DNA of 39,399 nt from Rhodospirillaceae bacterium (GTDB lineage Bacteria > Pseudomonadota > Alphaproteobacteria > UBA828), in contig JABIXB010000208.1 in assembly GCA_018666805.1 (NCBI GenBank), positions 1 through 39,399 on the forward strand, read 5' to 3'. Each line of letters starts with the position of its first letter. Position 1 is the first letter of the stretch. The notes beneath the pieces are model-generated. The model saw only the letters and a list, made by a program, of their open reading frames with translations, made no database searches and was not told the origin of the DNA. The translations under genes and the position numbers were made by a program. This document shows positions 15,355 to 35,485 of the stretch, piece by piece.

Positions 15355-15825
15355 ATGGAAAAAACCGATTTTATGCAGCACGCGATCGACCTCTGCCAGC
15401 GCAAAATGGACGAGGGCGCCGGCGGCTATTGCGCCTCCCTGGTGGTCAAGGACGGCGAGGTGATCGGCGAAGGCTGGAATGACGTGATCAACAACAGCGA
15501 TCCGACCGGCCACTGCGAAATTCATGCACTCCGTGCGGCAGGTAAGAAATTAGGCACCTGGGACCTCTCGGGCTGCGATCTCTACACCACCTGGGAGCCC
15601 TGTCAAATGTGCGCCGGCGCGATCTGGTGGGCACGGATCGACCGGGTTTATTACGCCAATCTGCTGAGCGATGCGGAGCGCCTCGGCATGGATATCGGCG
15701 ATCTGCACCGCGAGGTCAGCGCGCCAACCCATGAACGCTCGCGGCCTTACGAAAGACTGATGGGCGAAGAAGCTTTCGCCGTCGTGAAGCGCTGGTTCGA
15801 TGCCACCAACCCGGAGGTGCACTGA
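15355..15825 (+). CDS. Guanine-deaminase-like nucleobase/nucleoside deaminase
   Basis: Zinc deaminase of the CMP/dCMP-deaminase fold, predicted to hydrolyse an exocyclic amino group of a nucleobase-like ring to release ammonia. 156 aa. The zinc and proton-shuttle site is HCE (His53, Glu55) with EPCQMC (Cys83, Cys86). The stretch EPCQMCAGAIWWAR is close to bacterial guanine deaminase (GuaD) and unlike cytidine deaminase. The residue between His and Glu is Cys rather than the usual Ala. ATG 15355 is chosen for its GGAGACAGGG ribosome-binding site; the upstream open frame crosses the palindrome. It is the first gene of the catabolic array. Substrate specificity is inferred only at family level. 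Confidence 0.85.
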   Translation: MEKTDFMQHAIDLCQRKMDEGAGGYCASLVVKDGEVIGEGWNDVINNSDPTGHCEIHALRAAGKKLGTWDLSGCDLYTTWEPCQMCAGAIWWARIDRVYYANLLSDAERLGMDIGDLHREVSAPTHERSRPYERLMGEEAFAVVKRWFDATNPEVH

Positions 15826-15965
15826 CCGGTTTAAAACCATTCAAAGTTGGCGTAGGCTTGGAACAGCCACAGATATCGCGGGTAACTGAAATATCACCAA
15901 GCGAAAAAAGAGGGTATGCGAACAAACCCCGGCTTATAAAAACGTTTAAACAGAGGAGATGGGAT

Positions 15966-17111
15966 ATGACTGCACGTAAAGCCGATAAGAAGCCTACATG
16001 GCGTCTCACGCGACGCAAATTCCTCAAGGGCTCGGCCGCCGCCGCTGCCCTCATTGCCGCCAGCAGCGCAACCAGGCGCGTTGCCTGGTCGGAAGAAAAC
16101 ACGCTGAGCTATCTGTGCTGGCCCGGCCATGGCGCGCCAGAGGTGGTGGAGCCGTTCGAGCAAGCCAATAATGTTAAGATCATCCCTAAGGAATATGTCG
16201 GCGGCGAAGCCATGATGGCGCTGATTAACCAGAGCGACCCCGGCACCTATGACGTGGTGCTGAGCGACCGCGAATATATTGTTATGATGCGCGATGCCGG
16301 TCTCATTGATGAGATGGATCCGAATGATTATGCATTCGATGATTTCTGGCCGGAATTTCAGAAAATGCCGGGCCACTGGCTGAACGGTAAGCTGTACTCA
16401 GTAGTGCTCGATTTCGGCTATCTCGGCGTCGTGCATAACACCGATGTGATCTCCGAGAAGGAAGCCTCATCCTATAAGGTTCTGTGGGATCCGAAGCTGA
16501 CCGGCAAAGTGGGTCAGTTCGATTGGTACCTGCCGAGCATGGGCAATCTCAGCCAATATAACGGCAACAAATCGCCGTTCGATATCGACGATGCCGCCTT
16601 TGCCAAGCTACGCGATACGGTGTTTTCACTGAAGCCGCAGGTGGCCGGCTATCACGGTATTCCCGATATCTTTAACGCGCTGAAAAATGGCGATGCATTG
16701 GCCTATCAGGGTATCGGCGATTGGATCACGATCCTGCTGTCAGCCGAAGGCTATCCGGTCACGACCACCATTCCGGACGAGGGTGGCATTCAGTGGACGG
16801 AATCGCTTTCACTGTCCACGGACGGTAAGAAGCAGGACCTGGCGAAGAAGTTCATCCAGTATCTCACCGCGCCGGAAGGCCAAGTGCGGGTCGCGTTGAA
16901 GTCTTCCTATTGGGGCTCCATTCCCAATAAGAAGGGCTGGACGCTGATGAACGATATCAAGCCGAACGAGGCCACTATTCTGCGCCATCGTTTCGATCAG
17001 CGGAACGTGATGGATGAATATGCCGACGGCAAAATCACGCTTCGTCAATTGCCTGAGCAACAGTCGATCGATGATTGGTCGGAAGTGTGGAACGAGTATA
17101 AGAATCTCTAG
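15966..17111 (+). CDS. Tat-exported ABC substrate-binding protein, PotD-like
   Basis: Periplasmic receptor of the importer encoded downstream. 381 aa. A twin-arginine signal, LTRRKFLKG at residues 14-22, precedes an alanine-rich hydrophobic stretch, so the protein is probably exported folded. The mature part begins near SEENTLSYLCWPGHG and matches the spermidine/putrescine (PotD/PotF) branch of solute-binding proteins; many members bind other compounds. ATG 15966 follows an AGAGGAG ribosome-binding site by about 8 bases; the open frame upstream lacks signal-peptide character. A strong hairpin after the stop should raise its mRNA level relative to the permeases. The ligand is unknown, but the neighbouring deaminases suggest a nitrogenous ring compound. 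Confidence 0.9.
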   Translation: MTARKADKKPTWRLTRRKFLKGSAAAAALIAASSATRRVAWSEENTLSYLCWPGHGAPEVVEPFEQANNVKIIPKEYVGGEAMMALINQSDPGTYDVVLSDREYIVMMRDAGLIDEMDPNDYAFDDFWPEFQKMPGHWLNGKLYSVVLDFGYLGVVHNTDVISEKEASSYKVLWDPKLTGKVGQFDWYLPSMGNLSQYNGNKSPFDIDDAAFAKLRDTVFSLKPQVAGYHGIPDIFNALKNGDALAYQGIGDWITILLSAEGYPVTTTIPDEGGIQWTESLSLSTDGKKQDLAKKFIQYLTAPEGQVRVALKSSYWGSIPNKKGWTLMNDIKPNEATILRHRFDQRNVMDEYADGKITLRQLPEQQSIDDWSEVWNEYKNL

Positions 17112-17120
17112 GCTGGAATT

Positions 17121-17160
17121 AACGGGCCGCCCCCCCAACGGGCGGCCCGTTTTCCTTTTT
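17121..17160 (+). terminator. Strong intrinsic terminator/attenuator after the binding-protein gene
   Basis: AACGGGCCGCCC (17121-17132) and GGGCGGCCCGTT (17140-17151) form a perfect 12-bp stem with a 7-base loop, followed by TTCCTTTTTTC. It lies 9 bases after the binding-protein stop and 45 bases before the permease ATG. Partial read-through would give more binding protein than membrane components, a common arrangement in ABC import operons. Confidence 0.88.
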
Positions 17161-17195
17161 TCTGCCACCATTCAGCGCTGATCGAATGCGCCTCC

Positions 17196-18086
17196 ATGGC
17201 CGATAAAGCTTTGACACAACCGACTGCCGGAACGGCTGCGCGCAATGTGGACGGTTACGCCCTTTTTTGGGGTTTGCCGCTGGCGCTCTGGCAATTGGTG
17301 TTCTTTGTAGCACCGCTGGTATTTCTCGTCGTGATGACCTTTTGGACGGTCAAGAATTTTCGCCTTACGCCCGATTTCGACACCGTCAATTGGGTCAATA
17401 TGTTTTCCAAAGGCTATGTTATCGACACCTATTTCCGTACTCTTTGGTATGGTGCGCTCGGCGCGGTGGTGTGCAGTGTACTGGCCTTTCCGGCATCCTA
17501 TGCGCTCGCCTTCAAGGCCTCTCCTGTGGTGCAGCGTATTGGTCTCTTTATGCTGATTACGCCGTTTTTTACCAGCTATCTGGTGCGCATCTATTCGTGG
17601 CAGGCGGTGGTATCGGACAATGGTGTACTCAACAATCTGCTCGGAGTTTTTGGCCTCGGCCCGTTCAATATTCTCGGCACGTTGCTTGGCACCATGGTCG
17701 GCTACATAACTCTAACGTTGCCGCTCGTTATCCTGTTGCAGTTTTTCAGCCTCTCCGGTGTTGACCGGAATTATATCGAGGCGGCGCAAAATCTCGGCTG
17801 CGGCCGCCTGCGGACGGTGTTCCTGGTGATTATCCCGTTGGCCAAGACCGGCATTATTCTCGCCGGAACGTTCGCCTTTATCCTTTGTTTCGGCGATCTG
17901 GTGAGCCCGACATCGTTGGGCAGCAGCAAGCCGCCGACCTTGAGCATCCTGATCGTCGATACGGTCAAGCAGGGCAATAATTGGCCGCGCGCCGCGGTGG
18001 TCGCGCTGATGATGGTGTTGACCCTTATCGTCGTTGCTTTCACCGCAATCTTTTTTGCCTATCGCGTCAAGAAAGAGAAAACATGA
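17196..18086 (+). CDS. ABC transporter permease, PotB-like
   Basis: 296 aa with about six TM helices. The cytoplasmic EAA loop is YIEAAQNLGCGRLRTVFLVIIP, which contacts the ATPase. The N-terminal WQLVFFVAPLVFLVVMTF and the region around YLVRIYSWQAVVSDNGVLNN are typical of PotB permeases of the polyamine/opine/phosphonate group. The gene lacks an obvious ribosome-binding site, and it lies just after the attenuator. It overlaps the next permease gene by 4 bases (ATGA). Confidence 0.9.
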   Translation: MADKALTQPTAGTAARNVDGYALFWGLPLALWQLVFFVAPLVFLVVMTFWTVKNFRLTPDFDTVNWVNMFSKGYVIDTYFRTLWYGALGAVVCSVLAFPASYALAFKASPVVQRIGLFMLITPFFTSYLVRIYSWQAVVSDNGVLNNLLGVFGLGPFNILGTLLGTMVGYITLTLPLVILLQFFSLSGVDRNYIEAAQNLGCGRLRTVFLVIIPLAKTGIILAGTFAFILCFGDLVSPTSLGSSKPPTLSILIVDTVKQGNNWPRAAVVALMMVLTLIVVAFTAIFFAYRVKKEKT

Positions 18087-18898
18087 GCGCCGACCGCCTT
18101 ATCGCCTACGCGTTGCGCGGCTGGTTCCTGGTGGCGTTGTTCTTCATCTTTGTGCCGATCATCATCAATTTTATTTATTCCTTCAGTCCCAGCCGTTTTC
18201 CGACCTTGCCGCTTGGCGGCTTCAGCACCGGCTGGTACGAGCTGATATTGAACGAGGCGCCGGTACCGCGCGCCTTCGGCAACAGCCTGAAAGCCGGCGT
18301 GATCGTCGCCGTTATATCCACCTTTATCGGTTTTGCCGCCGCCTATACGGATTACCGCTACCGTTTCCTCGGCAAGAATTTTTACCTCGCTCTGGCGCTC
18401 CTGCCGCCGACTATTCCGGTGCTTATTCTCGGCCTTGTGATGCTGATGTTTCTCAGCCGGGTCAGCCTCGTCGGAGAACTTTATTCGGTCGTTCTCGCAC
18501 ATGTTGTGTATTGCATTCCCTTCGCCATGGCGCTGATTCGCCTGCGTTTGGCGCAGATGAATCCCGACCTTGAAAGCGCGGCATGGAATCTTGGCGCCAA
18601 TTCGTGGCGTGCCATGCGCGAGGTGATCGTACCCTTTACCCTGCCTTCGATATTCGCCGCCCTGGCGCTCACCATGGCGGTCTCGTTCGATGAATATTTG
18701 ATCGCCTTTTTTGTCGGCGGCCTGACCGAGACCTTGCCGGTGCGCGTGCTGGCGCTGTTGCAGGGCCAGGTCAGCCCGCGCATCAACGCCATCGGCAGCG
18801 TTGTTTTCACCATATCCATGAGCCTTGTAATCCTGGCCCAGATCCTTTTATTGACGCGTCGCTCCGGCGGACGCAGCATCGCCGCTGGAGGCAAATAA
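18083..18898 (+). CDS. ABC transporter permease, PotC-like
   Basis: 271 aa, about six TM helices, second half of the permease heterodimer. The EAA loop is ESAAWNLGANSWRAMREVIVP, with FDEYLIAFFVGG after it, as in PotC/PotI. ATG 18083 overlaps the PotB-like stop (ATGA); the upstream extension of the frame codes the out-of-frame end of that gene. The ATPase gene starts 3 bases after its stop. Confidence 0.9.
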   Translation: MSADRLIAYALRGWFLVALFFIFVPIIINFIYSFSPSRFPTLPLGGFSTGWYELILNEAPVPRAFGNSLKAGVIVAVISTFIGFAAAYTDYRYRFLGKNFYLALALLPPTIPVLILGLVMLMFLSRVSLVGELYSVVLAHVVYCIPFAMALIRLRLAQMNPDLESAAWNLGANSWRAMREVIVPFTLPSIFAALALTMAVSFDEYLIAFFVGGLTETLPVRVLALLQGQVSPRINAIGSVVFTISMSLVILAQILLLTRRSGGRSIAAGGK

Positions 18899-18900
18899 CC

Positions 18901-19986
18901 ATGTCGGAAGCCTTGCTCGTCTTGGATAAGGTGGTGAAACGTTTCGGCGAACACACCGCCGTCGATGGCGTGGATTTGCAGATCAGTAAAGGCGAATTTC
19001 TTGCCATTATGGGGCCGTCGGGTTGTGGCAAGACAACGACGCTCCGCATGATCGCCGGCCTCGAGCAACCGAGCGCGGGCGAGATCCGCCTCAATGGCAC
19101 ACGCATGAACGAGCTCAAGCCGTGGCAGCGCGATACGCCGTTGGTGTGGCAGAATTTGGCGCTCTTTCCCCATTTGAGCGTGTTAAAGAATGTCGAATTC
19201 GGCCTCAAGATGCGCAATGTCGCCGCGCGCGAGCGGCGCGAACGCTCGATGAACTGGCTCGAGCGCATGGGCCTCGCCGAATATGCCGGGCGCAATATCG
19301 CCCAGCTTTCGGGCGGTGAGCGCCAGCGCGTGGCGATCGCCCGGGCACTCGTGACCGAGCCCGAAATCCTGCTGCTCGACGAACCCTTAAGCGCGCTCGA
19401 TGCGCATTTGCGCGTGCGCATGCAGTCGGAAATCACGCAACTGCAAAAGCAGCTCGGCATCACTTTTGCCTATGTCACGCACAATCAATCGGAAGCCTTC
19501 GCCATGGCGAGCCGGGTGGCAATCATGAATGGCGGGCTGATCCAGCAGATTGGCAGCCCGCGCGAGGTTTACCGTGCGCCGGCCAATCATTTCGTCGCCG
19601 AATTTGTCGGCAGCAACAATATTTTGAGCGGCACCGTGACGGCCCTTGAAGGCGGGCAGGTGACAGTGCAAACCGCGTGGGGCAGCTTCAACGCGCCGAC
19701 GCCTGAGCCGGCGCCGAAAACAGGCGATGCGCTGGAGCTTGTTGTGAGCGCTGACCTGGTTGCCGTATCGGATAGCGCCGGCGCGGAGGGCAATGTGTTG
19801 AGCGGCGAACTGATTAGTGAGGAATTCATCGGCTCGATTATCACGCTTTACATCGACATCGGCGACGGCATCGTTTTTCGCGCACAAAAGCAGCAGCATG
19901 AATTGGATGCGCTCGACTATAGTTCGGGGCGCAAGCTCTTTGCTTCGTGGCGGCCCGAGCACACTTATGTCCTACCGCAAATCTGA
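18901..19986 (+). CDS. ABC transporter ATP-binding protein, PotA-like
   Basis: 361 aa, energises import through the two permeases. Walker A is GPSGCGKTT (Lys44), the Q-loop is at VWQNLALFPHL, the ABC signature is LSGGERQRVAIARAL (from about 137), Walker B is ILLLDEP (Asp160, Glu161), and the switch histidine is in YVTHNQSEA. The C-terminal 120 residues form a TOBE/OB-type regulatory domain, as in PotA, MalK and UgpC. Tightly linked to the permeases. Substrate class cannot be decided from the ATPase. Confidence 0.93.
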   Translation: MSEALLVLDKVVKRFGEHTAVDGVDLQISKGEFLAIMGPSGCGKTTTLRMIAGLEQPSAGEIRLNGTRMNELKPWQRDTPLVWQNLALFPHLSVLKNVEFGLKMRNVAARERRERSMNWLERMGLAEYAGRNIAQLSGGERQRVAIARALVTEPEILLLDEPLSALDAHLRVRMQSEITQLQKQLGITFAYVTHNQSEAFAMASRVAIMNGGLIQQIGSPREVYRAPANHFVAEFVGSNNILSGTVTALEGGQVTVQTAWGSFNAPTPEPAPKTGDALELVVSADLVAVSDSAGAEGNVLSGELISEEFIGSIITLYIDIGDGIVFRAQKQQHELDALDYSSGRKLFASWRPEHTYVLPQI

Positions 19987-20012
19987 GACGGCAAAAGAAC
20001 AGAGGAAAGAAA

Positions 20013-21533
20013 ATGACCATTCATATCAAGGGCGCCAAAATCATGGCGATGGATGCCAGCCATGGCAGTGACTGTTTCGATGGCGATATTCTCATCGAGG
20101 ATCAGCGCATTGTCGCCATGGGGGCGGCGCTGCCCGAGGCGGAAGCCGATATCGTCATCGATGGGCACGATAAGCTGGTGACGCCGGGCTTCGTTAACGG
20201 CCATATCCATACGCCCGAAGCGCTGTTTCGTGGGCGCTACGAGAATTTACCGCTCGAGATGTGGATGACGCTGGCCTATTTCCTCGTCGGCGACGGGCAG
20301 CTTGCGCCGCGCGCGCTCTATCTCCGTTCCATGCTGGTCGCCATGGACGCGCTCCGGAACGGCGTAACCTTTCTCGCCGATGATATTCTCGAGCCGCCGC
20401 TACAATCGATGGAGACGCTGGGCTGCATTTTTCAGGCCTATGACGATGTCGGCATCCGCGCCAATGTTTCCGGCCATGTCATCGACCGGCCGATCGCCGA
20501 TACCATTCCTTTCTTCCCCGAGATTCTGCCCGACGATTTGTTGGCGCAAATCAATGCCGGCAAGCCGCCGACGGTGGAAGAATATGTGGCTTTTGCCGAA
20601 GAGGCTTTCTCGCTCTATCACGGCCGTGCCGACGGGCGGCTCCGCTTTATGGTGGCGCCGTCGGGGCCGCAGCGCTGCACGGTTGAGCTGATGCAGGCGG
20701 CGGATGAATTGGCGCGGGCCAACAAAACCGCCTTCCATACCCATATCGTCGAATCCAAAATACAAGCCGTGGCCGGCCATGAATTTTACGGCAAGACCCT
20801 GGTGCAATATATGCACGATCTCGGGCTGCTGAACCGCGGCACCACCATTGCGCACGGTGTGTGGACAACGGACGAAGACATCGCGCTGTTGGGCGCGGCC
20901 AAATGTTCGGTGGTGCATAACTCGCTCTCCAACATGAAGCTCCATTCCGGTGTGGCGCCGATCCGCCGCATGATCGATGCCGGCGTCAATGTCGCGATCG
21001 GCACGGACGGGGTATCGACCAGCGACACACCGCGCATGTTCGATGCCATGCGGACGGCTGCGTATATGCACGGCGTGACGACGGGCGATAATGAAGCCTG
21101 GCTCAGTTCGCATGAGGTGATTCACGCGGCGACCATGGGCGGCGCTTACAGTGCCTTGTTGGAAGACGATATCGGCTCGCTCGAAGTGGGCAAGAAGGCC
21201 GACCTCGTCATCATGGACCTGCGCAACGCCAATTTCGTGCCGCTCAACGATCCGCGCAAACACATTGTCTACTGCGAAAATGGCAGCTCGGTTGAAACCG
21301 TGATCGTCGACGGCGAAATCGTCCTGCGCGACGGTCTGCTGACAAAAATAGACGAGGAGGCGATGCTCGATGAATTCCGCGAGCTGATGCCGGAAATAAT
21401 GGCTAAACATGAGCCGCAGGAGGAGCAGAACAAAGCCTTCCTTCCCTACCTGCAAGAGGTTTACGAGCGCTGCGCCGCGGTCGACCTCGGTATCCATCGC
21501 TATGGTGGCAACGATATGCCGTCTTGGCCGTAG
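20013..21533 (+). CDS. TRZ/ATZ-type amidohydrolase A (aminohydrolase on a ring substrate)
   Basis: 506-aa metal-dependent amidohydrolase of the cytosine deaminase/atrazine chlorohydrolase (TRZ/ATZ) group. It has the beta-strand 1 HxH (GHIHT, His64 and His66), further ligands in AFHTHIVESK and TIAHGVWTTDEDI, and the catalytic aspartate in IGTDGVSTSDTPR. The fold is a TIM barrel with a composite beta domain at both ends (KIMAMDASHG and GSLEVGKKADLVIMDL). Expected reaction: hydrolytic deamination or dechlorination of an N-heterocycle. The start at 20013 follows AGAGGAAAGAAA; the ORF extends upstream into the ATPase gene without support. It is a clear paralogue of the protein at 22392-23912, with the creatininase gene between them. 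Substrate unknown. Confidence 0.88.
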   Translation: MTIHIKGAKIMAMDASHGSDCFDGDILIEDQRIVAMGAALPEAEADIVIDGHDKLVTPGFVNGHIHTPEALFRGRYENLPLEMWMTLAYFLVGDGQLAPRALYLRSMLVAMDALRNGVTFLADDILEPPLQSMETLGCIFQAYDDVGIRANVSGHVIDRPIADTIPFFPEILPDDLLAQINAGKPPTVEEYVAFAEEAFSLYHGRADGRLRFMVAPSGPQRCTVELMQAADELARANKTAFHTHIVESKIQAVAGHEFYGKTLVQYMHDLGLLNRGTTIAHGVWTTDEDIALLGAAKCSVVHNSLSNMKLHSGVAPIRRMIDAGVNVAIGTDGVSTSDTPRMFDAMRTAAYMHGVTTGDNEAWLSSHEVIHAATMGGAYSALLEDDIGSLEVGKKADLVIMDLRNANFVPLNDPRKHIVYCENGSSVETVIVDGEIVLRDGLLTKIDEEAMLDEFRELMPEIMAKHEPQEEQNKAFLPYLQEVYERCAAVDLGIHRYGGNDMPSWP

Positions 21534-21569
21534 GACACGCCCCAGAACCGACCATGAAAGGAGTTTGCG

Positions 21570-22379
21570 ATGACAGATAATATCCGAATTTGCGAACTGA
21601 ACTGGATGGAATATGACCGTCGCCTGCGTGAGGAAGCGCCGGTGGTGATGCTGCCGGTCGGCTCGCTCGAGCAGCATGGCCCGCATCTGCCGATGCATTG
21701 CGATTCGCTGATCCCGACGGCGATTTGCGAAGGTGTCGCGGCACAGTCGGGCGGGTTGGTGGCGCCAACGATCAGCTATGGCTACAAATCCCAACCCAAA
21801 TCCGGCGGCGGCAATCATTTCCCCGGCACCACCAGCCTCGACGGCCAGACGTTGATTTTTCTCGTGCGCGACGTGATCAAGGAATTCGCCCGCCACGGCG
21901 TGAAGAAAATAGCGCTGATGGATGGCCATTACGAAAACAATATGTTCCTGGTCGAGGGCATCGATCTGGCGCTCAGGGAATTGCGCCGCGACGGCATCAC
22001 GGATCTCCGCATCGCCAAGCTGCCCTACTGGGAATATGCCTCCGAAGATACGCTCGACAAGGCGTTTCCCGATGGTTTTCCCGGCTGGCCGCTTGAGCAT
22101 GCCGGCGTGATGGAGACCTCGGTGATGCTCCATCTCCACCCCGAATTCGTCAACATGGACAAGGTGCCGATGCATCCGCCAGCGGAATTCCCGCTGCACG
22201 ATATGTATCCCACCGATCCGGCGACGGTGCCGTCTTCGGGCGCGCTGTCCTCGGCCGCGGTGGCGACGGCGGAGAAGGGCAAGATGTTTATGGACGAATA
22301 TGTCGGCGGCGCGGCGCAAGCGCTGAACGAAGCTTTCGGCGAAGAAGAGAACATTATTATTCTGGGCGACAGCAGCTAA
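21570..22379 (+). CDS. Creatininase (creatinine amidohydrolase) family protein
   Basis: 269 aa. Creatininase opens the creatinine lactam to creatine using two metal ions. From memory of the Pseudomonas enzyme, the metal ligands are Glu34, His36, Asp45, His120 and Glu122, and here the same residues sit at the same numbers: LEQHG (Glu34, His36), HCDS (Asp45), GHYEN (His120, Glu122). The flap tryptophan Trp154 (LPYWEY) is present, as are Trp173 and His177 in GWPLEHAG (174 and 178 in the reference). KSGGGNHFPGTTSLDGQTL and VEGIDLALRELR are also close to that enzyme. So this is a close relative of true creatininase rather than the mycofactocin or deformylase branches. Ribosome-binding site AAAGGAG. 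No creatinase gene (creatine to sarcosine and urea) is nearby, so the substrate may be a creatinine analogue. Confidence 0.88.
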   Translation: MTDNIRICELNWMEYDRRLREEAPVVMLPVGSLEQHGPHLPMHCDSLIPTAICEGVAAQSGGLVAPTISYGYKSQPKSGGGNHFPGTTSLDGQTLIFLVRDVIKEFARHGVKKIALMDGHYENNMFLVEGIDLALRELRRDGITDLRIAKLPYWEYASEDTLDKAFPDGFPGWPLEHAGVMETSVMLHLHPEFVNMDKVPMHPPAEFPLHDMYPTDPATVPSSGALSSAAVATAEKGKMFMDEYVGGAAQALNEAFGEEENIIILGDSS

Positions 22380-22391
22380 CGGGAGAGGCAT

Positions 22392-23912
22392 ATGAGCTAT
22401 CTGATCAAGGGCGCGACCATTGTTGCCATGGACGGCGCGCACGGCGCCGAGCCGTTCAGCGGCGATATTCTCATTGGTGATGATCGCATCAAGGAGATCG
22501 GCGAAAATCTCTCCGCGGCCGGCGTTGGCGAGACCATCGACGGACGCGGCAAGCTGGTCATGCCGGGCTTGACCAACGCCCATGTCCATTCCTGGGAGGC
22601 GATGTTTAAAGGGCGCTACGACAATCTGCCGCTCGAACTCTGGATGTTGCTGTGCTACCCGATCCTCGGCGCCGTGCCGCTGCCGCCGCGCCTGGTTTAT
22701 CTGCGTACCATGATCGTTGGCATGGAGTGCCTGAAAACCGGCGTTACCAATGTGCTCGACGATGTGCTTGAAATGCCGACCCAGGATTTGGATCAGCTCG
22801 CAGCGACCTTCCAGGCCTATGACGATCTCGGCATGCGCGCCAACCTCTCCGGCCATATCATCAACCGACCGTTCAGCGAGACCATTCCCTTTTCCGATGA
22901 ATATTTACCGGAGGATTTGAAGGCCAAGGTTTCAGCCGCGGTACCGCCGACGACCGAGGCCTTTGTCGAGCTTGCCGAAGAGGCGGTATCGCGCTTCCAC
23001 AATAAAAAGGGCCGCTTGCGCTACGTCGTTGCGCCGTCCGGCCCGCAGCGCTGCACCGATGACATGTTGGTCGCCGCCTATGAACTGGCCGATAAGCACG
23101 ACATGGCCTATCACATCCATATTCTTGAATCGAAAATCCAGGCCGTTACCGGACATGAGTTTTACGGCAAGACCCTGATTGGCCATATGAACGATATCGG
23201 CGCGCTCGGGCCGCGCACGACGATCGCCCATTCGATCTGGGTGACGGATGAGGATATCGCCATGATGGCGGATGCCGGCTCGACCGTGGTGCACAACGCG
23301 ATCTCCAATCAAAAGCTCGGCGCCGGCATCATGCCGTACCGCAAATTGATGGATGCCGGCATCACCATCGGTCTCGGCTCGGACGGCATTTCGACCAATG
23401 ACACGCCGCGTATTTTCGATGTGATGAAGGCGGCGGCGCTGTTGCATAAGGTCTCGACGCCCGATTATCCGCAAGGGCCGACGGCGAGCGAGATATTGCG
23501 CGCCGGCACGATCAACGGTGCGCGTACCGCGATGATCGATGGCGATACCGGCTCGCTCGAAGCGGGCAAGAAGGCCGATCTTCTGATTCTCAACATGAAG
23601 ACGCTGAATTTCACGCCGCTTAATGATGTGCGCAATCACCTGGTCTATTGCGAAAACGGCACCTCGATTGAGAAGGTCATGGTGAATGGCGAAATCGTGG
23701 TTGAGGACAATCGCCTGAAACGGGTGGATGAGGCGGCACTGTTGGAAGAGTTGCGCGGCCATTTGCCGGAATTCCAAAAACAACACGCGCAGTTGGAAGC
23801 GCTCAACAGCGCCTTCCGCCCGGCATTCGAACAAATTCACAAGCGCTGCTGCGGGCATGATCTGGGAATCAACCGGTTCTCGCGCCCGCCGGGCGACTGG
23901 TATCAGGCATAG
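22392..23912 (+). CDS. TRZ/ATZ-type amidohydrolase B, paralogue of amidohydrolase A
   Basis: 506 aa, the same length as the protein at 20013-21533 and strongly similar along its whole length, including VAPSGPQRCT, SKIQAVTGHEFYGKTL and VYCENGTSIEKV. Metal site: AHVHS (His64, His66), AYHIHILESK, TIAHSIWVTDEDI and the catalytic aspartate in LGSDGISTNDTPR. Differences from copy A in the substrate loops (HIHTPEA to HVHSWEA; AHGVWTT to AHSIWVT) suggest separate or sequential substrates. The gene starts 13 bases after the creatininase gene with a GGGAGAG ribosome-binding site. Reaction class deamination of a ring amine is inferred; it may instead act as a heteromer with copy A. Confidence 0.88.
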   Translation: MSYLIKGATIVAMDGAHGAEPFSGDILIGDDRIKEIGENLSAAGVGETIDGRGKLVMPGLTNAHVHSWEAMFKGRYDNLPLELWMLLCYPILGAVPLPPRLVYLRTMIVGMECLKTGVTNVLDDVLEMPTQDLDQLAATFQAYDDLGMRANLSGHIINRPFSETIPFSDEYLPEDLKAKVSAAVPPTTEAFVELAEEAVSRFHNKKGRLRYVVAPSGPQRCTDDMLVAAYELADKHDMAYHIHILESKIQAVTGHEFYGKTLIGHMNDIGALGPRTTIAHSIWVTDEDIAMMADAGSTVVHNAISNQKLGAGIMPYRKLMDAGITIGLGSDGISTNDTPRIFDVMKAAALLHKVSTPDYPQGPTASEILRAGTINGARTAMIDGDTGSLEAGKKADLLILNMKTLNFTPLNDVRNHLVYCENGTSIEKVMVNGEIVVEDNRLKRVDEAALLEELRGHLPEFQKQHAQLEALNSAFRPAFEQIHKRCCGHDLGINRFSRPPGDWYQA

Positions 23913-23923
23913 GGAGACGGCAA

Positions 23924-25195
23924 ATGGATATCATCCTCAAGAACGCCAATGTGGCGCACCGCGACGAGCCGGTGCGCAACGCCGACATCGCCATCAAGGG
24001 CGAAACGATCGCCGCTGTGGAGGCCAACATTACCGCCGAGGCCGGCCAGACAATCGATTGCGGCGGGCGGCTGGTAAGCGGCTCGCTGATTGACGCGCAT
24101 GTCCATCTCGATGCCGTTCTGGCGGCGGGTCTCGAGCGCGACAATCAATCCGGCACCCTGCATGAGGGCATTGAGATCTGGACCGATTTCAAACCCAAGC
24201 GCACGGTCGAGGCGATCAAGGAGCGGGCGCGCCGCGCCATCGATTGGGAGGTGGCGCAAGGCGCGGGCTTTATCCGCACCCATGCCGATGTTTGCGACGA
24301 TGCCCAGCTTTCGACCCAGGCGCTGGTCGAGCTGCGCGATGAACTGCGCGACCGGGTCGATATTCAGATCGTCGCCTTTCCGCAAGTCGGCATCAAATCC
24401 TTTCCCGGCGGCGAGAAGCAGATGCGAGATTCGCTCGATATGGGTGCCGATGTCGTTGGCGGCATCCCGCATAACGAAGTCACGCGCGAGGCCGGTCATG
24501 CGAGCGTTATGTTTATCTTTGACGAAGCCGAGAAGCGCGGCCTCAAGATCGATGTGCATTGCGACGAGGTCGATGACAGCCATGCACGTTTTCTCGAGGT
24601 CATGGTCGAGCAGACGTTCCAGCGCGGCATGGGCGCAAGCGTGACAGCGAGCCATTGCGTCGCCATGCATTCCTACAACAACGCCTATGCCTACCGCCTG
24701 ATGGGCTGGGTCGCGCGTTCCGAATTGAACGTCACCGCCAACCCGTTCGACAACATCATTCTGCAGGCGCGCGAGGACAGCTATCCCAAGCGGCGTGGCA
24801 TGACGCGGGTGAAGGAGCTGTTGCAAGCCGGGGTGAATGTCGGCATCGGCCATGATTCGATCATGGACCCGTGGTATCCGCTCGGGCGCGGCGACATGGT
24901 GGATGCGGCGTCGCTGGCGCTGCATGTTTGCCAGATGTCGGGCGTCGAGGAAATCGATACCTGTTTCGACATGATCACGTGGCGCAACGCGCAGAATTTG
25001 GGGCTGGAAAATTATGGCGTGGCGTCCGGTGCCCAGGCCGATTTGGTGATTTTCGATGCCGCCAGCAAGGCCGATGTGCTGCGCATCAACCCGGCCTGCA
25101 CCCATGTTTTCAAGCGCGGCCAACTGGTTTCCGAAACCAAACCGGCGGAAAGCACGGTGATGGGCGGCAGGGTGGATTTCACGCGCGGCAATTGA
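23924..25195 (+). CDS. CodA-like amidohydrolase 1 (cytosine/creatinine deaminase type)
   Basis: 423-aa TIM-barrel amidohydrolase of the CodA group, which deaminates cytosine, isocytosine and, in some species, creatinine. Motifs: HxH in DAHVHLDAV (His59, His61), IDVHCDEVDD, ASHCVAMH, and the catalytic aspartate in GIGHDSIMDPWYPLG, the closest match to CodA. In the first motif the CodA lysine of HLDKAL is replaced by alanine (HLDAVL). Ribosome-binding site GGGAGAC. It lies 11 bases after amidohydrolase B and 10 bases before the next CodA-like gene. The substrate is unknown, but the full active site suggests a working deaminase. Confidence 0.88.
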   Translation: MDIILKNANVAHRDEPVRNADIAIKGETIAAVEANITAEAGQTIDCGGRLVSGSLIDAHVHLDAVLAAGLERDNQSGTLHEGIEIWTDFKPKRTVEAIKERARRAIDWEVAQGAGFIRTHADVCDDAQLSTQALVELRDELRDRVDIQIVAFPQVGIKSFPGGEKQMRDSLDMGADVVGGIPHNEVTREAGHASVMFIFDEAEKRGLKIDVHCDEVDDSHARFLEVMVEQTFQRGMGASVTASHCVAMHSYNNAYAYRLMGWVARSELNVTANPFDNIILQAREDSYPKRRGMTRVKELLQAGVNVGIGHDSIMDPWYPLGRGDMVDAASLALHVCQMSGVEEIDTCFDMITWRNAQNLGLENYGVASGAQADLVIFDAASKADVLRINPACTHVFKRGQLVSETKPAESTVMGGRVDFTRGN

Positions 25196-25205
25196 GGCAG
25201 AATCC

Positions 25206-26459
25206 GTGGATTTGATCGTTAAAAACGCCAATCTGTGGCGTGGCGATGGCGCGTGCGACCTTTACATCGCCGACGGGCGTTTTACCGCAGCGCCGGAGGA
25301 TGGCAACACCAGCGGCGCCGAAATTATCGATGCGGCGGGCTGTCTTTGTGTCGCCGGGTTTGTCGAGCCGCATATTCATCTCGACAAGGCGCTGATTAAT
25401 GAGGATGTGCGGCCCAATGTTTCCGGCACTCTTGATGAAGCGATTGAAATCATCTGGGAGCGCAAGCGCGCCTACGATGTCGACGAAATCGCCGCGCGCG
25501 CCGGGCGGGTGATCCGCTCTGCCCTGGCCAATGGCGTGACGCACATCCGCAGCCATGTCGATGTCGATAATATCGGCGGCTTGCGCCCGCTCGAAGGCGT
25601 TGCCGAGGCGCGCCGACGCCATAGCGATGTGATGGATATTCAGATCGTCGCCTTCCCGCAGGAAGGTATTTTAAAGAACGCCGGCACCGAAAAACTGATG
25701 TGGCAGGCGATGGAGGCCGGCGCCGATGTGGTCGGTGGCATGCCGTTTAATGAGAAGCACCCGCAAGACAGCGCGCGCCATATCAGCATCGCTTTTGAGA
25801 TCGCCAAGGCGTTCGATGCCGATATCGATATGCATGTCGACGAGACCGACGATGTCGGTGCACGGACATTGGAGATGCTGGCCGAGCAAACCATCGAACA
25901 TGGCTGGCAGGGCCGCGTCACGGCGGGGCATACATGTGCGCTCGCCGGTTATGACGAAGATTACGCCAATGCCGTCATTGCGCTGGTGCGTGAGGCGGAG
26001 ATGCACATGATCACCAATCCGGCGACCAACCTGATGCTGCAGGGGCGGCTCGATGCGCAGCCCAAGCGGCGCGGTATTACGCGGGTGAAGGAATTGCTCG
26101 CCGAAGGCATTAACGTCTCGTTCGGTCAGGATTGCGTCAAGGATACCTTCTATCCCTTTGGCCGCGTCGACCCGTTGGAAGTGGGCTTGATTGCCGCCCA
26201 CGCCGCGCATATGAGCCTGCCGCAGGAGATCGAGCAGGTGTTTGACATGCAAACCAACCGGGCGGCAAAGGTGATGCGTCTTGCCGATTACGGCTTCGCG
26301 CCGGGTTGTGCGGCGGATCTGGTCATTCTCGATGCTGGCAGCGCCACCGAGGCGTTGTGCAAACAGGCGGCGCGCAATACCGTCATCAAGAACGGGCAAG
26401 TCATCGTCGAAAGCGAAACACGGCAGGACTGGCGCTGGGCGCCGGCGGAATTAGCGTAG
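25206..26459 (+). CDS. CodA-like amidohydrolase 2
   Basis: 417 aa, similar in length and order of motifs to its upstream neighbour but clearly diverged: [10 protein letters not shown] (His56, His58), [20 protein letters not shown], and [14 protein letters not shown] with the catalytic aspartate. It keeps the lysine after HLD that copy 1 lacks. The start is GTG 25206 with GAGG overlapping the stop of copy 1. Expected reaction: hydrolytic deamination of a six- or five-membered N-heterocycle. The two genes look like an old tandem duplication that has specialised. Confidence 0.88.
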
Positions 26460-26473
26460 GGAGAAGAACAAGA

Positions 26474-27568
26474 ATGGCAATCGATGTCGCCAAAATCGAA
26501 ATCAAGAGTGTGTCCGATGCGAGCGGGCTGGAAGAATTAATCACCTCGGGCCGTATGGCAGCCGACGATATTGTCGCCGCCATCGGCAAGACGGAAGGCA
26601 ATGGCGGCGTTAATGATTTCACCCGCATTCTGTCCGATCAGGCCTATCGTGCGGTGCTGCTCAAGCACGGCACACGCAGCGAGGCCGAGATCAAGGAAAT
26701 CCCAATGGTCTGGTCGGGTGGCTGCGACGGCGTCATTACCCCGCATGCCACCGTGTTTGCGCGGAATGGCGAAGCTGGCACGGGCGGGCAATCGCGCCTC
26801 GCCATGGGCACGGCGATGAGCGACATCATCCTGCCCGAGGATATCGGCCGCCCGGCGATGGTCGAGACGGTCGCCGCCGGTGTGCGCGCGGCAATGCAGA
26901 ACGCCGGCATCAGCGATGTTAAAGACGTGCATTATGTCCAGACCAAAACCCCGCTTCTCACCATTGACGGTATCCAGGAAGCGCATGGCCGGGGCCAAAG
27001 CGTCGCCTGCGAGGTGCATGATTCGATGGGCGTTTCGAACGGCACCACCGGGCTTGGCATCGCGCTCGCCCTGGGTGAGGCCGAGATGCCGGCGGCGGAA
27101 GATATTTGCCGCAATCTCGATCTTTATTCTTCCGTCGCTTCTTGCTCTTCGGGCGTCGAACTCGATCGGGCACAGATCGTCTTGTTCGGCAACCGCGACG
27201 GAGCCGGTGGGCGCTACCGTATCGGCCACAGCGTGATGCGCGACGCCCTCGATATGGACGGCATTTATGAATCGATCCGCTCGGCCGGGTTGGATTTGCC
27301 GGAGCGGGCGCGGCCTGGGGATCTCGGCGGCAAGCTGGTCAATTGCTTTATCAAATGCGAGGCAGACCCCGGCGCCAAACTGCGCAACCGGCGGCAAATT
27401 ATGCTCGATGATTCCGATGTTCATCATCATCGCCATTCAAAAGGTGCGGTTGGCGGCGTGGCGGCGGCGGCGATTGGCGATCCGGCGGTGTTCGTTTCGG
27501 TCGACGCCATGCACCAAGGCCCGCCCGGCGGTGGCCCCTCGATTGCCATTGTCGATATGGGCGATTAA
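26474..27568 (+). CDS. Ring-opening amidohydrolase (cyanuric acid hydrolase/barbiturase family)
   Basis: 364 aa. This small family has a threefold repeated fold in which three Ser-Lys pairs surround one active site that hydrolytically opens cyanuric acid (AtzD/TrzD) or barbituric acid. Repeat landmarks: [15 protein letters not shown] in the first unit, [19 protein letters not shown] in the second, and [18 protein letters not shown] with [17 protein letters not shown] in the third. The terminal signature differs from the EHMGP/EHQGP form I recall for the characterised enzymes (here AMHQGP), so the substrate may also differ. ATG 26474; the open frame further upstream lies in the CodA-like gene. 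The stop TAA overlaps the amidase ATG (TAATG), so the two steps are probably co-produced. Confidence 0.88.
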
Positions 27569-28989
27569 TGCCGGCTGATTTAACGCGCCGCAGCGCGTTT
27601 AAAATAGCGGCGGCGCTGCGTGCGCGCGACGTCAGCGCCGTTGAGGTTCTGGAAGCCCATCTCGGCGTAATCGATCACCTCAATCCGCGTCTCAACGCCA
27701 TCGTGACGCTCGCCGCCGATGCCGCGCGCGAGACTGCCCGGGCAGCGGACGCGCTCATTGCCGCAGGCAGTGAGAATCTGCCGCCGCTGTTGGGCCTGCC
27801 GGTGGTGATTAAGGACATCGTCGAGACGGCGGGCATACGCACCACTTGGGCCTCACCGGTTTACGCCGATCATGTGCCCGAGGAGGACGCCGAGGTTGTG
27901 GCCCGCCTGCGCAGCGCCGGCGCGATTATTCTCGGCAAGAGCAATACGCCGGAATTCGCCGCCGGCGCCAATACCGACAATGAACTCTTCGGCCCGACGG
28001 GAAATCCGTGGGATCCGGTGCTGAGCCCGTCCGGCTCGTCCGGTGGCTCGGCGGCGGCGGTGGCGAGCGGCATGGTGCCGATTGCGCAAGGCACCGATTT
28101 CGGCTGCTCGCTACGCATGCCGGCGGCTTTTTGCGGCATTGTCGGCCTCCGCACCACGCCCGGCCTGATCTCCAACTATCCGCTGCCGTTGCCGTGGGAT
28201 CCCGGCCAGGTGTTGGGGCCGATGGCGCGCAGCGCTGAAGATGCTGCGATGATGCTCGACGCCATGGCCGGCTACAGCGAGAAAATGCCGAATTCCGTTC
28301 TGGCGCCGTGGTCGAGCGCGCTTGAGATCGTGCGCGGGCGGGAGGATGCCAAGGGCCTCCGCCTCGCCTATGCGCCCGACATTGCCGCCATCGGCGTCGA
28401 TGCGGAGCTTGAGGGTATTTGCCGCAAGGCGGCGCTCGGCCTGGCCGGGGATGGCGCGATTGTCGAAGAGATTGATTTTGACCTCTCGGATGCGCGCGAT
28501 GCCTATCTCACGCTGCGCGGCGAATGGATGGTCGGCATGCAATATGAGCGCCTCGACAATCTCGACGCTTTCGGGCCGAATTTAGCCGGCAATGTGCGCT
28601 CCGGGCTCGGCACTACAATGCAGGAATTGGCCGCCGCCGAGGATATGCGCACCCGCGTTTGGCATCGCTACAGAAAATTATTCGAGACATACGATGCGCT
28701 CTTGATGCCGATGTCGCCGGTGCAGCAATTCCCGGTCAAACAAAATTTCCCCGACAGCATCGGCGGCCGCAAGCTGGAGAATTATGTCGATTGGATCGCC
28801 GGTGCCTTCCTGGTGACCATGGCCGGTATCCCGGCGGGCTCGATCCCGGCCGGCCTCACACAGGCCGGCCTGCCGGTTGGCCTGCAAATCGCGGCGCCGC
28901 GTTTTGCCGAGCCGCTAATATTATCGCTCGGAAAATTGCTGCAGCGCGCTAATCCTATTGGCTGGCCGGCTTGGGCCGACAGTCACTGA
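27568..28989 (+). CDS. Amidase signature family hydrolase, coupled to the ring-opening enzyme
   Basis: 473 aa. The Ser-cisSer-Lys triad is readable: Lys82 in VVIKD, Ser157 in GSSGGS, Ser181 in GTDFGCSLRMP, with the expected 24-residue spacing between the serines. The nucleophile loop has Cys where most members have Gly (GGS to GCS). Substrates of the family include linear amides, allophanate and carbamoyl compounds such as ureidomalonate. Because its ATG overlaps the stop of the ring-opening amidohydrolase, it most likely cleaves the ring-opened product. A full allophanate hydrolase C-terminal domain is absent. Confidence 0.87.
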   Translation: MPADLTRRSAFKIAAALRARDVSAVEVLEAHLGVIDHLNPRLNAIVTLAADAARETARAADALIAAGSENLPPLLGLPVVIKDIVETAGIRTTWASPVYADHVPEEDAEVVARLRSAGAIILGKSNTPEFAAGANTDNELFGPTGNPWDPVLSPSGSSGGSAAAVASGMVPIAQGTDFGCSLRMPAAFCGIVGLRTTPGLISNYPLPLPWDPGQVLGPMARSAEDAAMMLDAMAGYSEKMPNSVLAPWSSALEIVRGREDAKGLRLAYAPDIAAIGVDAELEGICRKAALGLAGDGAIVEEIDFDLSDARDAYLTLRGEWMVGMQYERLDNLDAFGPNLAGNVRSGLGTTMQELAAAEDMRTRVWHRYRKLFETYDALLMPMSPVQQFPVKQNFPDSIGGRKLENYVDWIAGAFLVTMAGIPAGSIPAGLTQAGLPVGLQIAAPRFAEPLILSLGKLLQRANPIGWPAWADSH

Positions 28990-29005
28990 CTGTTGAGGTG
29001 ACGGA

Positions 29006-29887
29006 ATGGGGATGTTCGATTGTATCGGATTTATCGGCGTCGGTGTGATGGGCGAGCCCATGTGCCGAAATCTGGCTTTGAAAGGCGGCGACAAGGTATT
29101 GGCCTATGACATTGATTCCGCGCCGCTCGAACGCCTCGCCGCCGACGGCGTGGTAGCGGCGGATTCGCTTGCTGAATTGTGCGCCAAGACACACACCATC
29201 CTGATGTCGCTGCCTGACGGTGAGCTGGTGCGTCTTGCCTGTTATGGCGAACATGGCCTACTGGAAAAATTGACCTCGGGCCAAAGCGTCATCGATTGCG
29301 GCACCTCGCCGCCGCAATTGGCGCGTGAACTGCATCAGGCATTTGCCGCAAAAAATATCGCGTTTGCCGATGCGCCGGTGGCGCGCACCCGCCAGGCAGC
29401 AATCGACGGCACGCTCAGCATTATGGTTGGCGGCGACAAAAGTGTGTTTGACCGCATTCAGCCGATACTCGCCTGCATGGCGAGCGATATTACCCATTGC
29501 GGCGAGCCCGGCGCCGGCCAGACGGTAAAAATTCTCAACAATATGATGTTGTTCCAAAATTGCGCCGCCATTGCCGAGGCGCTCGCCATTGCGCGCCGCG
29601 CAGGACTTGATGAGGAGTTGTTTCTGCAAACGGTTGGTAAAAGTTCCGGTGATAGTTTCGCGCTGCGCAATCACGCCACCAAGGCTATGCTGCCGCGTGA
29701 TTATCCCGAGGGCGCGTTTTCGGTGCGCTATGCGCTCAAGGATCTGGTCTACGCGCTCGACCTCGCGGCGGCGGAGAAGGTTGAGATAAAAGGCGCCGAG
29801 CTGGTGCGCGAACGCTTCGAGAAAGCCATCGAGGAGGGCCTTGGCGAGCGCTACCACCCGGTCGTCCGCGAGGTGATCGATTCCTAG
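29006..29887 (+). CDS. Beta-hydroxyacid dehydrogenase (3-hydroxyisobutyrate/tartronate semialdehyde reductase family)
   Basis: 293-aa NAD(P)-dependent dehydrogenase. Rossmann motif IGFIGVGVMGEPM at the N-terminus, catalytic lysine Lys175 in GAGQTVKILNN. The substrate-binding motif that usually reads DAPVSGG is DAPVARTRQAA here, so the acid recognised may not be hydroxyisobutyrate or tartronate semialdehyde. As last gene of the array it may reduce or oxidise the carbon skeleton left after nitrogen removal. A GAGGTGACGG ribosome-binding site precedes ATG 29006. The stop shares CTAG with the convergent gene. Confidence 0.87.
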   Translation: MGMFDCIGFIGVGVMGEPMCRNLALKGGDKVLAYDIDSAPLERLAADGVVAADSLAELCAKTHTILMSLPDGELVRLACYGEHGLLEKLTSGQSVIDCGTSPPQLARELHQAFAAKNIAFADAPVARTRQAAIDGTLSIMVGGDKSVFDRIQPILACMASDITHCGEPGAGQTVKILNNMMLFQNCAAIAEALAIARRAGLDEELFLQTVGKSSGDSFALRNHATKAMLPRDYPEGAFSVRYALKDLVYALDLAAAEKVEIKGAELVRERFEKAIEEGLGERYHPVVREVIDS

Positions 29888-32779: not shown

Positions 32780-32807
32780 TTGTTTGCCTTCGGCCAGGCG
32801 CTAGAAT
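32780..32807 (+). promoter_or_regulatory. Candidate promoter of the molybdoenzyme operon
   Basis: TTGTTT (32780-32785), a 16-base spacer, and TAGAAT (32802-32807, 5/6 match to the -10) lie 25 bases ahead of ATG 32833. The spacer holds GCCT-TCGGCC-AGGC, a small dyad that could be an operator. Because the -10 lies inside the longer open frame, it supports the start at 32833. Confidence 0.4.
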
Positions 32808-32832
32808 GGCGGCCCTTGGGAGAGCGATAAGA

Positions 32833-34761: not shown

Positions 34762-34768
34762 GAGTTTT

Positions 34769-35485
34769 ATGCGCATTCTCGTTTTGCAACACTCGCCGCT
34801 CGACCATCCCGGCGTGATGCGCGATTACCTCGATCAAGACGGAATCGCCTGGGATGCGATCGATACATTCGACGGCCAGCCGATTCCGCCGCTTGATGAT
34901 TATGCGGCGTTGATCGTCATGGGCGGGCCGCAACAGATCGATCAGGAAGCAGAGCATCCGTGGCTGGTGGCTGAAAAAAATTTCATCCGCCGCACCATCG
35001 ATGAAAACGTCAAGCCGGTGCTCGGCATCTGTCTCGGCTCCCAGCTCATTGCCGAGGTGATGGGCGGGCGCGTCGGGCCGATGGCGCAGCCGGAGATCGG
35101 CGTGCTCGATGTGGAGGCGCTGCCGGGTGCTGCGGAAGAAGCGCTTTTTGCCGGATTTCCGGCACGCGCCAAAGCCGTGCAATGGCATTTATACGCGATC
35201 CAGGAATTACCGCCCGGCGCGCGCCGTCTGATGTATTCGCCGGCATGCGAGAATCAGGCGTTTCGCATCGGCCGCGCGGCCTATGGCTTGCAGTTTCATA
35301 TGGAACTATCTGTCGATACGGTCCAGGCCGTCGAGGCCTATCCGGAATATGTTGCGGCGCTTGAGGCGCAGCGGGGTGTCGGTGCGCTCACGCATCTGGT
35401 TAATGAGACGGCGTATCATGCCGATGAGATGGGCAGTTCCATCCGCCTGATTTACGATAATTTCGTCAAGCTGGCGCACGGCTGA
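34769..35485 (+). CDS. Class I glutamine amidotransferase-like protein (GMP synthase type)
   Basis: 238 aa. The triad of class I glutaminases is visible: Cys88 in GICLGSQLIAE, His177 and Glu179 in LQFHMEL. The N-terminal MRILVLQHSPLDHPG is typical of stand-alone GATase1 proteins related to the GMP synthase amidotransferase domain. It may hydrolyse glutamine or a gamma-glutamyl compound, or deliver ammonia to an unknown partner. ATG 34769 follows AGGAG, which overlaps the stop of the molybdoenzyme gene. No synthetase partner is adjacent, so a hydrolytic role is as likely. Confidence 0.85.
   Translation: MRILVLQHSPLDHPGVMRDYLDQDGIAWDAIDTFDGQPIPPLDDYAALIVMGGPQQIDQEAEHPWLVAEKNFIRRTIDENVKPVLGICLGSQLIAEVMGGRVGPMAQPEIGVLDVEALPGAAEEALFAGFPARAKAVQWHLYAIQELPPGARRLMYSPACENQAFRIGRAAYGLQFHMELSVDTVQAVEAYPEYVAALEAQRGVGALTHLVNETAYHADEMGSSIRLIYDNFVKLAHG

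Follow-up and report, generated by a model that had tools for sequence, protein, structure and literature searches.

A thirteen-gene hydrolase array of a Rhodospirillaceae bacterium, read as a composite two-module nitrogen-scavenging operon with predicted cyclic acylguanidine and pyrimidine substrates

A row of 13 genes, all on the + strand, spans positions 15355 to 29887 of a 39,399-nucleotide stretch of DNA from a Rhodospirillaceae bacterium (the window; contig JABIXB010000208.1, C114 of the source genome G000, which is 98% complete in 317 contigs). The nearest named records to G000 are alphaproteobacterial metagenome-assembled genomes, probably marine to judge from their isolate names. With moderate confidence, we favor the reading that this array is a composite two-module nitrogen-scavenging operon for cyclic acylguanidines of the creatinine type and for pyrimidines, both substrate classes being predicted from sequence. 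Module A (15355-23912) holds a deaminase, an ATP-binding cassette (ABC) importer, the amidohydrolase TRZ1, a creatininase and the amidohydrolase TRZ2, and module B (23924-29887) holds CodA1, CodA2, the ring opener BAR, an amidase and a dehydrogenase. The array unites known kinds of enzyme in a new way and joins modules that are separate in relatives, so that it probably serves as a composite kit for scavenging rather than as a single pathway for a single compound. The initial annotation of the window correctly described the same-strand array, as every hydrolase, importer and dehydrogenase gene that it named is present on the + strand in this span. It also regarded the families as individually known and their combination as unfamiliar, and the array indeed matches no complete pathway known to us. 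Its proposal that one compound passes through one linear pathway is not supported, since the modules separate at TRZ2/CodA1. The 13 genes are as follows.

15355 to 15825, + strand: deaminase of the CDA superfamily resembling Bacillus subtilis guanine deaminase (GuaD-like), substrate putative, module A; Pfam PF00383, top PDB matches guanine deaminases 1wkq (118 bits) and 1tiy (117 bits).
15966 to 17111, + strand: substrate-binding protein of the ABC importer, PotD-like, with a twin-arginine (TAT) signal, module A; PF13416, start refined.
17196 to 18086, + strand: ABC importer permease 1; PF00528.
18083 to 18898, + strand: ABC importer permease 2; PF00528, start refined.
18901 to 19986, + strand: ABC importer ATPase; PF00005 and TOBE_2.
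20013 to 21533, + strand: TRZ1, TRZ/ATZ-type amidohydrolase, module A; PF01979.
21570 to 22379, + strand: creatininase, module A; TIGR04448 at 359 bits (cut-off 235), Pseudomonas putida creatininase 1j2t at 316 bits.
22392 to 23912, + strand: TRZ2, paralogue of TRZ1 (52% identical, by alignment and tree), module A; PF01979.
23924 to 25195, + strand: CodA1, cytosine-deaminase family, module B; PRK07572 at 492 bits (cut-off 438).
25206 to 26459, + strand: CodA2, cytosine-deaminase family, module B; PRK07572 at 389 bits, under the cut-off of 438.
26474 to 27568, + strand: BAR, ring-opening amidohydrolase of the AtzD/barbiturase family, module B; PF09663, barbiturase 5hwe at 461 bits.
27568 to 28989, + strand: amidase-signature hydrolase, candidate ureidomalonase, module B; PF01425.
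29006 to 29887, + strand: dehydrogenase of the 3-hydroxyisobutyrate / tartronate-semialdehyde reductase type, end of module B; PF03446 and PF14833.

The deaminase open reading frame has its better ATG at 15355, and the stop of the dehydrogenase is at 29887; all 10 NCBIfam matches of the dehydrogenase fall under their cut-offs. With refined starts, the 12 junctions measure 140, 84, -4, 2, 26, 36, 12, 11, 10, 14, -1 and 16 bases (range -4 to 140, with 11 of the 12 at 84 or fewer). By these lengths the row looks like one transcription unit, and we infer one transcript for both modules. A methyltransferase gene lies upstream, adjoining the deaminase also in the congeners G002 and G004, and a convergent gene downstream ends the row. 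In a sigma-54-like site 5′ of the deaminase, GC is missing at -12, and neither G002 nor G004 preserves the complete site. Ratios of nonsynonymous to synonymous substitution (dN/dS) against congeners range from 0.037 to 0.157 for orthologous pairs that yield a value, after exclusion of a dehydrogenase pair that was saturated (L021) and of three pairings of the paralogues TRZ1 and TRZ2 (0.265-0.296). The 12 genes covered are under purifying selection; the thirteenth, the binding-protein gene, had no pair of sufficient length.

Congener contigs often end inside the array, and gene order was read where they allow. G002 carries permease 1-permease 2-ATPase-TRZ1 and also TRZ1-creatininase-TRZ2-CodA1-CodA2-BAR-amidase-dehydrogenase, and G003 follows the window's order from the end of the ATPase gene and TRZ1 through to the dehydrogenase. 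G001 yields ATPase-TRZ1-creatininase-TRZ2, TRZ2-CodA1-CodA2-BAR on L022 (G001:C227) and BAR-amidase-dehydrogenase. The deaminase and binding-protein genes are adjacent in G004, a genome 84% complete in which neither an AtzD-family gene nor creatininase was found. Synteny within the genus says little by itself, as congeners also preserve genes that lie beyond the array, and the argument rests on breaks inside the genus and on comparisons beyond it. Two such breaks support a division of the array at TRZ2/CodA1. G003 has a 3.6-kb insertion exactly at this junction, with open reading frames that by eye encode pentapeptide repeats, and G005 (L021, the 14,514-base contig G005:C68) carries CodA1-CodA2-BAR-amidase-dehydrogenase without TRZ2 upstream, a gene that by eye is tetratricopeptide-like standing before CodA1 in the place of TRZ2. 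Neither deaminase nor creatininase was found in the G005 genome (86% complete). In the sister genus (g6), halves resembling module A and module B (CodA2-BAR) lie on separate contigs. The initial annotation had made a single pathway depend on neighboring genes being conserved together in related genomes; they are so conserved within each module, and conservation breaks at the join between the modules.

These breaks bear directly on a single linear pathway for one polyamino N-heterocycle, in which import and deamination by five deaminases would be followed by barbiturase opening and amidase cleavage. Such a pathway would account for the whole gene set standing in one tight row, with 12 of the 13 genes under purifying selection, and compounds of the 2,4,6-triaminopyrimidine type could, on chemical grounds, reach barbiturate by deamination alone. 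It would also suit the genome G113, where a CodA1-like gene (45%) occurs with a TRZ gene (35%), a diverged importer, TRZ2 (60%) and a GuaD-like gene (52%). Nevertheless, the halves are apart in G005 and in the sister genus, and a linear pathway has no place for creatininase, a five-membered-ring enzyme that keeps its known contact residues. We consider it decidedly unlikely.

The creatininase passes the TIGR04448 equivalog cut-off and keeps the metal and substrate residues E34, H36, D45, H120, E122, W154, W174 and H178 of the P. putida enzyme, as counted by eye in an alignment. The importer is PotABCD-like and lies well under the polyamine equivalogs, with the binding protein at 75 of the 582 bits needed for PotD (and at most 76 bits, a weak match, to PotD structures) and the ATPase at 349 of 482 bits for PotA. 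A polyamine importer PotABCD was rejected on these missed cut-offs. In the sister genus, G013 and G015 have the order importer-TRZ1-creatininase-ureohydrolase-deaminase, with identities to the window of 65-74% for the importer genes, 63-64% for TRZ1 and 70% for creatininase. The order of G013 is repeated in G017 and G018 from the ATPase (or permease 2) onward, and also in G016, whose contig ends as the ureohydrolase gene begins. Creatininase occurs in five of eight g6 genomes, with a GpuA-type ureohydrolase gene directly 3′ in all five, while G010 has TRZ1-ureohydrolase-deaminase and creatininase was not found there. The idea that GpuA stands in place of creatininase in the sister genus was dropped, as tblastn finds both, with creatininase preceding GpuA and G010 as the exception. 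The sister-genus ureohydrolase resembles P. aeruginosa 3-guanidinopropionase GpuA (476 bits to 3nip, against 332 bits to guanidinobutyrase) and differs from it in being encoded next to creatininase. An ortholog (81-84%) is present in all six genomes searched of the window's genus, outside the array; in G000 it lies at C24:11837-12781, adjoining a gene for a LarA-like protein.

Beyond the window's family, the same genes keep recurring company. In a sample of 385 genomes of the class, creatininase is found at E ≤ 1e-45 in 11, and its neighborhoods were read for all 9 of these that lie outside the family (two places in G100). The orthologous importer stands beside creatininase (54-64% identical) in G100, G022, G298 and, cut by a contig end, G205. 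Creatinase adjoins both in G298 and G205, and it lies beside creatininase also in G306 (78% identical to that of G205); the G205 enzyme scores 797, 655 and 580 bits against three solved creatinases. In G366, of another family, creatininase (51%) is followed 31 bases on by a GpuA-type gene (62%; L132:9845-11590). No importer, creatinase or GpuA lies beside creatininase in G204, G063, G310 (only 3.8 kb) or the second G100 place; a distant TRZ gene (34-36%) lies 5-6 kb from creatininase in G204 and in the second G100 place. Across the class, the amidinohydrolase that accompanies creatininase is of two kinds, which differ in fold, and creatininase-GpuA is possibly a general pair. We know of no other case of GpuA encoded beside creatininase, and among the literature matches listed that combine ureohydrolase or agmatinase terms with those for creatine or creatininase, none describes the pair by title or abstract start. 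The array thus resembles known creatinine utilization sets (creatininase, creatinase, importer) in its four-gene importer and creatininase, orthologs of which stand together in other families; it differs from them in that creatinase was not found in the window's genus and in the GpuA-type gene that follows creatininase in the sister genus and G366. The initial annotation dismissed creatinine too quickly, given the adjacency of orthologous importer, creatininase and true creatinase in G298 and G205, though it was right that creatinase is missing, none having been found in the window's genus. A simple creatinine to sarcosine pathway by way of creatinase is rejected on that same result from the six genomes searched. 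For Roseobacter litoralis, growth on creatinine is reported with the first step left unassigned in the accessible part of the paper (PMC3141670), which does not help the present reading.

TRZ1 passes the cut-off of none of the best 25 of its 56 NCBIfam matches, and TRZ2 likewise passes none of the models listed. We read the subfamily as predicted deaminases of nucleobase-like or creatinine-like rings. The TRZ1 orthologs of the sister genus (62-64%) lie between importer and creatininase or ureohydrolase. TRZ2 has matches at E ≤ 1e-80 in 28 of the 385 class genomes, neighborhoods being read for 10 of the 28 besides G000, and identity of at least 48% is confined to the window's family and G113. 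On a plasmid of Bradyrhizobium sp. 186, importer and TRZ follow the window's order, the TRZ being split in two and lacking a gene annotation. On Sinorhizobium meliloti pSymA, the genes ahead of a TRZ gene (51%) encode a BMP-type ABC importer, a VOC protein and a nucleoside hydrolase, company that suits an enzyme acting on the nucleobase side. A TRZ2 model built with AlphaFold from five sequences is poor, with a mean predicted local distance difference test (pLDDT) score of 62. G002 has an additional partial TRZ1 copy in tandem, at contig ends (L101, L122).

CodA1 and CodA2 keep the metal and catalytic residues H61, H63, Q156, H214, E217, H246 and D313 of Escherichia coli CodA, while D314 is Ser in CodA1 and Cys in CodA2, and W319 is Phe in CodA2. 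A CodA-type enzyme also figures in an explanation by creatinine alone, in which CodA1 would convert creatinine to N-methylhydantoin, creatininase would convert it to creatine, and the remaining genes would be passengers with side chemistry. Consistent with this, CodA of Corynebacterium glutamicum is reported to be linked to creatinine degradation to N-methylhydantoin (PMC8864220, available part) and a sponge metagenome study, in the part accessible, takes cytosine deaminase as the creatinine-hydrolysing enzyme (PMC6742649); the orthologous importer and creatininase also adjoin creatinase in one genus. This explanation, which we regard as unlikely, is countered by the company that CodA1 keeps in G005, with module B and not with creatininase, and by the lack of HyuAB, which would open N-methylhydantoin. 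As the initial annotation held, HyuAB is absent from the array, and none was found among the window proteins scanned.

The ring opener of module B was initially annotated as cyanurate/barbiturate-type; the family stands, and the assignment narrows to barbiturase-like. BAR shows 61.7% identity with the barbiturase of Rhodococcus and 45.0% with the cyanuric acid hydrolase of Moorella, and it scores 439 bits to PF09663 and at most 282 bits to cyanuric acid hydrolases, well below its match to 5hwe. Five positions separate barbiturase (Asn, His, Lys, Val, Ser/Ala) from cyanuric acid hydrolase (Arg, Thr, Arg, Gly, Gly), according to the accessible part of Peat et al. 2013 (PMC3758960). At these positions BAR has Asn189, His319, Lys323, Val343 and Asp344, and it is thus barbiturase-like at four of five, with Asp replacing the Ser of Rhodococcus or the Ala of Nonomuraea at the fifth. 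This Asp is present in all 79 complete rows of the 80 best loci, one further row being cut by a contig end. We read BAR as a barbiturase-like enzyme predicted to open barbiturate. A plasmid search with BAR returned 48 records, mostly enterobacterial, 2 at 60-80% and 46 below 60% identity, and the region in Nonomuraea is without annotation.

The same comparison decides against an s-triazine pathway like that of atzABCDEF, from melamine or ammeline to cyanurate. The superfamilies of the array and their similar order (TRZ, CodA/AtzC-like, AtzD family, amidase) resemble that system, and the window BAR protein passes the NCBIfam equivalog of cyanuric acid amidohydrolase, NF052395, at 425 bits against a cut-off of 360. 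Against it, BAR carries N-H-K-V-D at the five positions of PMC3758960 (accessible part) and not R-T-R-G-G; malonate genes lie near some BAR homologues; and the amidase falls under the cut-offs for AtzE (214 of 426 bits) and allophanate hydrolase (161 of 511 bits), so that it is neither AtzE nor AtzF by this measure. The latter score also agrees with the initial annotation, which saw no biuret or allophanate hydrolase in the array. An s-triazine pathway is very improbable. Because NF052395 is passed, automatic annotation could mislabel the clade with Asp344 as cyanuric acid hydrolase, and such misannotation is possibly systematic. Separately, at L121 and L124 (G265, G344), a TRZ/ATZ gene (39-40%) and an AtzD-family gene (43-44%) with the signature R-T-R-G-G occur with an importer; allantoinase-like and racemase-like genes were recognized by eye in the same region. 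In G002 and G003 (L103:16318-18202 and L104), a second AtzD-family gene (41% to BAR, N-T-R-G-G) adjoins a distant creatininase-family gene (30-31%).

The neighborhoods of BAR help to interpret the amidase. They comprise the best 80 of 171 loci in named genomes (73-93% identical), of which 77 lie outside the genus, with neighbor thresholds of our own choice. The amidase at 50% identity or more accompanies BAR in 25 of the 77 and at 2 loci inside the genus; at each of these 27 it shares the strand of BAR, and at 11 (9 outside the genus) it lies within 300 bases of BAR. A CodA2 homologue of at least 50% identity is found in 16 of the 77, 9 of these counted as sister genus. At the thresholds used, TRZ1, TRZ2, creatininase, CodA1, deaminase, binding protein and dehydrogenase are each found in none of the 77. 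Malonyl-CoA decarboxylase genes lie near BAR at L032, L033, L048, L056 and L058, and malonyl-CoA synthase genes at L058 and L087; those of L048, L056 and L058 were checked by Pfam or NCBIfam and those of L032 and L033 (46-47%) and L087 (53%) by tblastn only. The clearest arrangement, BAR-amidase-malonyl-CoA decarboxylase-malonyl-CoA synthase, is at L058 (Bradyrhizobium sp. U87765). These genes suggest that malonate is the product and that a ureidomalonase acts after the barbiturase, and the amidase is a candidate ureidomalonase yielding malonate and urea. To our knowledge, no sequence is assigned to this activity, and a ureidomalonase gene is named in no title or abstract start among the literature matches listed. 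Module B would then resemble the oxidative pyrimidine pathway (uracil, barbiturate, ureidomalonate, malonate and urea, with Rhodococcus barbiturase) in its CodA-type deaminases, barbiturase-type enzyme, amidase and, near some homologues, malonate genes; it differs in the Asp of BAR and in lacking a uracil-oxidizing gene. Other genes also recur at BAR loci outside the genus: a flavin adenine dinucleotide (FAD) monooxygenase in 6 of 77, the relative at L137 being of the PRK07236 subfamily, and xanthine-dehydrogenase-type large subunits in 9 of 77. At L038, L030 and L137, HyuA/HyuB of the ATP-dependent hydantoinase family and an NMT1-like binding protein stand beside BAR homologues.

In the composite operon that we favor, each substrate and the direction of each step are predicted. 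The PotABCD-like importer would take in a cyclic acylguanidine of the creatinine type, as its orthologous neighbors suggest, and the creatininase, by family and contact residues, would open the five-membered lactam, which yields a guanidino acid. This acid may then be cleaved into urea and an amino acid by an amidinohydrolase whose gene lies outside the array, most likely the GpuA-type enzyme at G000:C24, a step placed here because such genes adjoin creatininase in two families. The urea may pass to urease, the alpha subunit of which is found above cut-off in two copies in G000. The GuaD-like enzyme and TRZ1/TRZ2 could remove ammonia from related 2-amino-4-oxo rings of the guanine or creatinine type. 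In module B, CodA1 and CodA2 may deaminate pyrimidine-type rings, BAR would open a barbiturate-type ring and the amidase would release urea and malonate, the last two steps resting on the BAR signature and the malonate genes; the dehydrogenase might act on a C3 semialdehyde, which is a guess. Ring opening would need no ATP, as the initial annotation supposed, since the families involved require none, and its statement that the array matches no complete pathway for creatinine, uracil or cyanurate agrees with our reading, in which the window holds no complete textbook pathway.

Several observations weigh against this reading. On the side of module A, the trio of creatininase, creatinase and importer is confined to one genus (G298, G205); no creatinase was found with importer and creatininase in the stretch read of G022, and G100 has only a 39% relative of creatinase, on the far side of the importer. 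Creatinase was likewise not found in the six genomes of the window's genus (84-98% complete), with partial matches of 27-29% in three and none in three. In the sister genus a true creatinase (65-70%) is encoded elsewhere in all eight genomes searched, and because GpuA is in the operon there, the guanidino acid of that operon is perhaps not creatine. AGMAT, a guanidino-acid hydrolase of humans with 45% identity to GpuA of P. aeruginosa, is reported to hydrolyse neither creatine nor guanidinoacetate (PMC9772407). On the side of module B, absences at BAR loci are soft, as 4 kb on both sides is available in only 44 of the 80; malonate genes occur at only 6 of the 77, at distances from BAR of about 1.5 to 7 kb and, at L032 and L033, on the strand opposite BAR; and HyuA (24 of 77) and HyuB (25 of 77) recur with a role that the reading does not explain. 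No enzyme oxidizing uracil to barbiturate is present in the array, and the 15 places of the xanthine-dehydrogenase-type family (MoCoBD_2) in G000 are too common to assign. Finally, the CodA1-like gene of G113 lies among module-A-like genes and not beside BAR in the stretch read, which blurs the split.

A more specific form of the composite reading is quite unlikely as a whole. It would make the operon a creatinase-free route for cyclic acylguanidines, in which creatininase opens five-membered rings and a GpuA-type ureohydrolase, of a different fold, cleaves the resulting guanidino acids in the step of creatinase, the Asp344 clade opens six-membered rings of the malonylguanidine type, which retain an exocyclic amine or imine, and yields malonate together with guanidine or urea, and one importer feeds both branches. 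The predictions made here comprise a ureidomalonase gene, a pairing of creatininase with GpuA that might take the place of creatinase, an importer that takes up creatinine-like compounds and a clade of barbiturases whose active site is altered and which is open to misannotation as cyanuric acid hydrolase. If true, they would together suggest how such alphaproteobacteria use creatinine-like and pyrimidine-like dissolved organic nitrogen. No paper pairing creatininase with a ring-opening amidohydrolase was found in a literature search whose coverage mostly excludes subscription papers, and none with both creatininase and barbiturase is among the matches listed.

Two further features of the window were noted. 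ARAGORN calls a tRNA-Arg antisense inside BAR (27141-27236, - strand), which is probably spurious, as Rfam has no match at all in the window at gathering thresholds. Downstream (3′) of the array, positions 32806-36856 carry a molybdopterin oxidoreductase, a class I glutamine amidotransferase and a second amidase, all kept in G002; the amidotransferase and second amidase are kept also in G005, and the group is possibly another nitrogen-compound operon.

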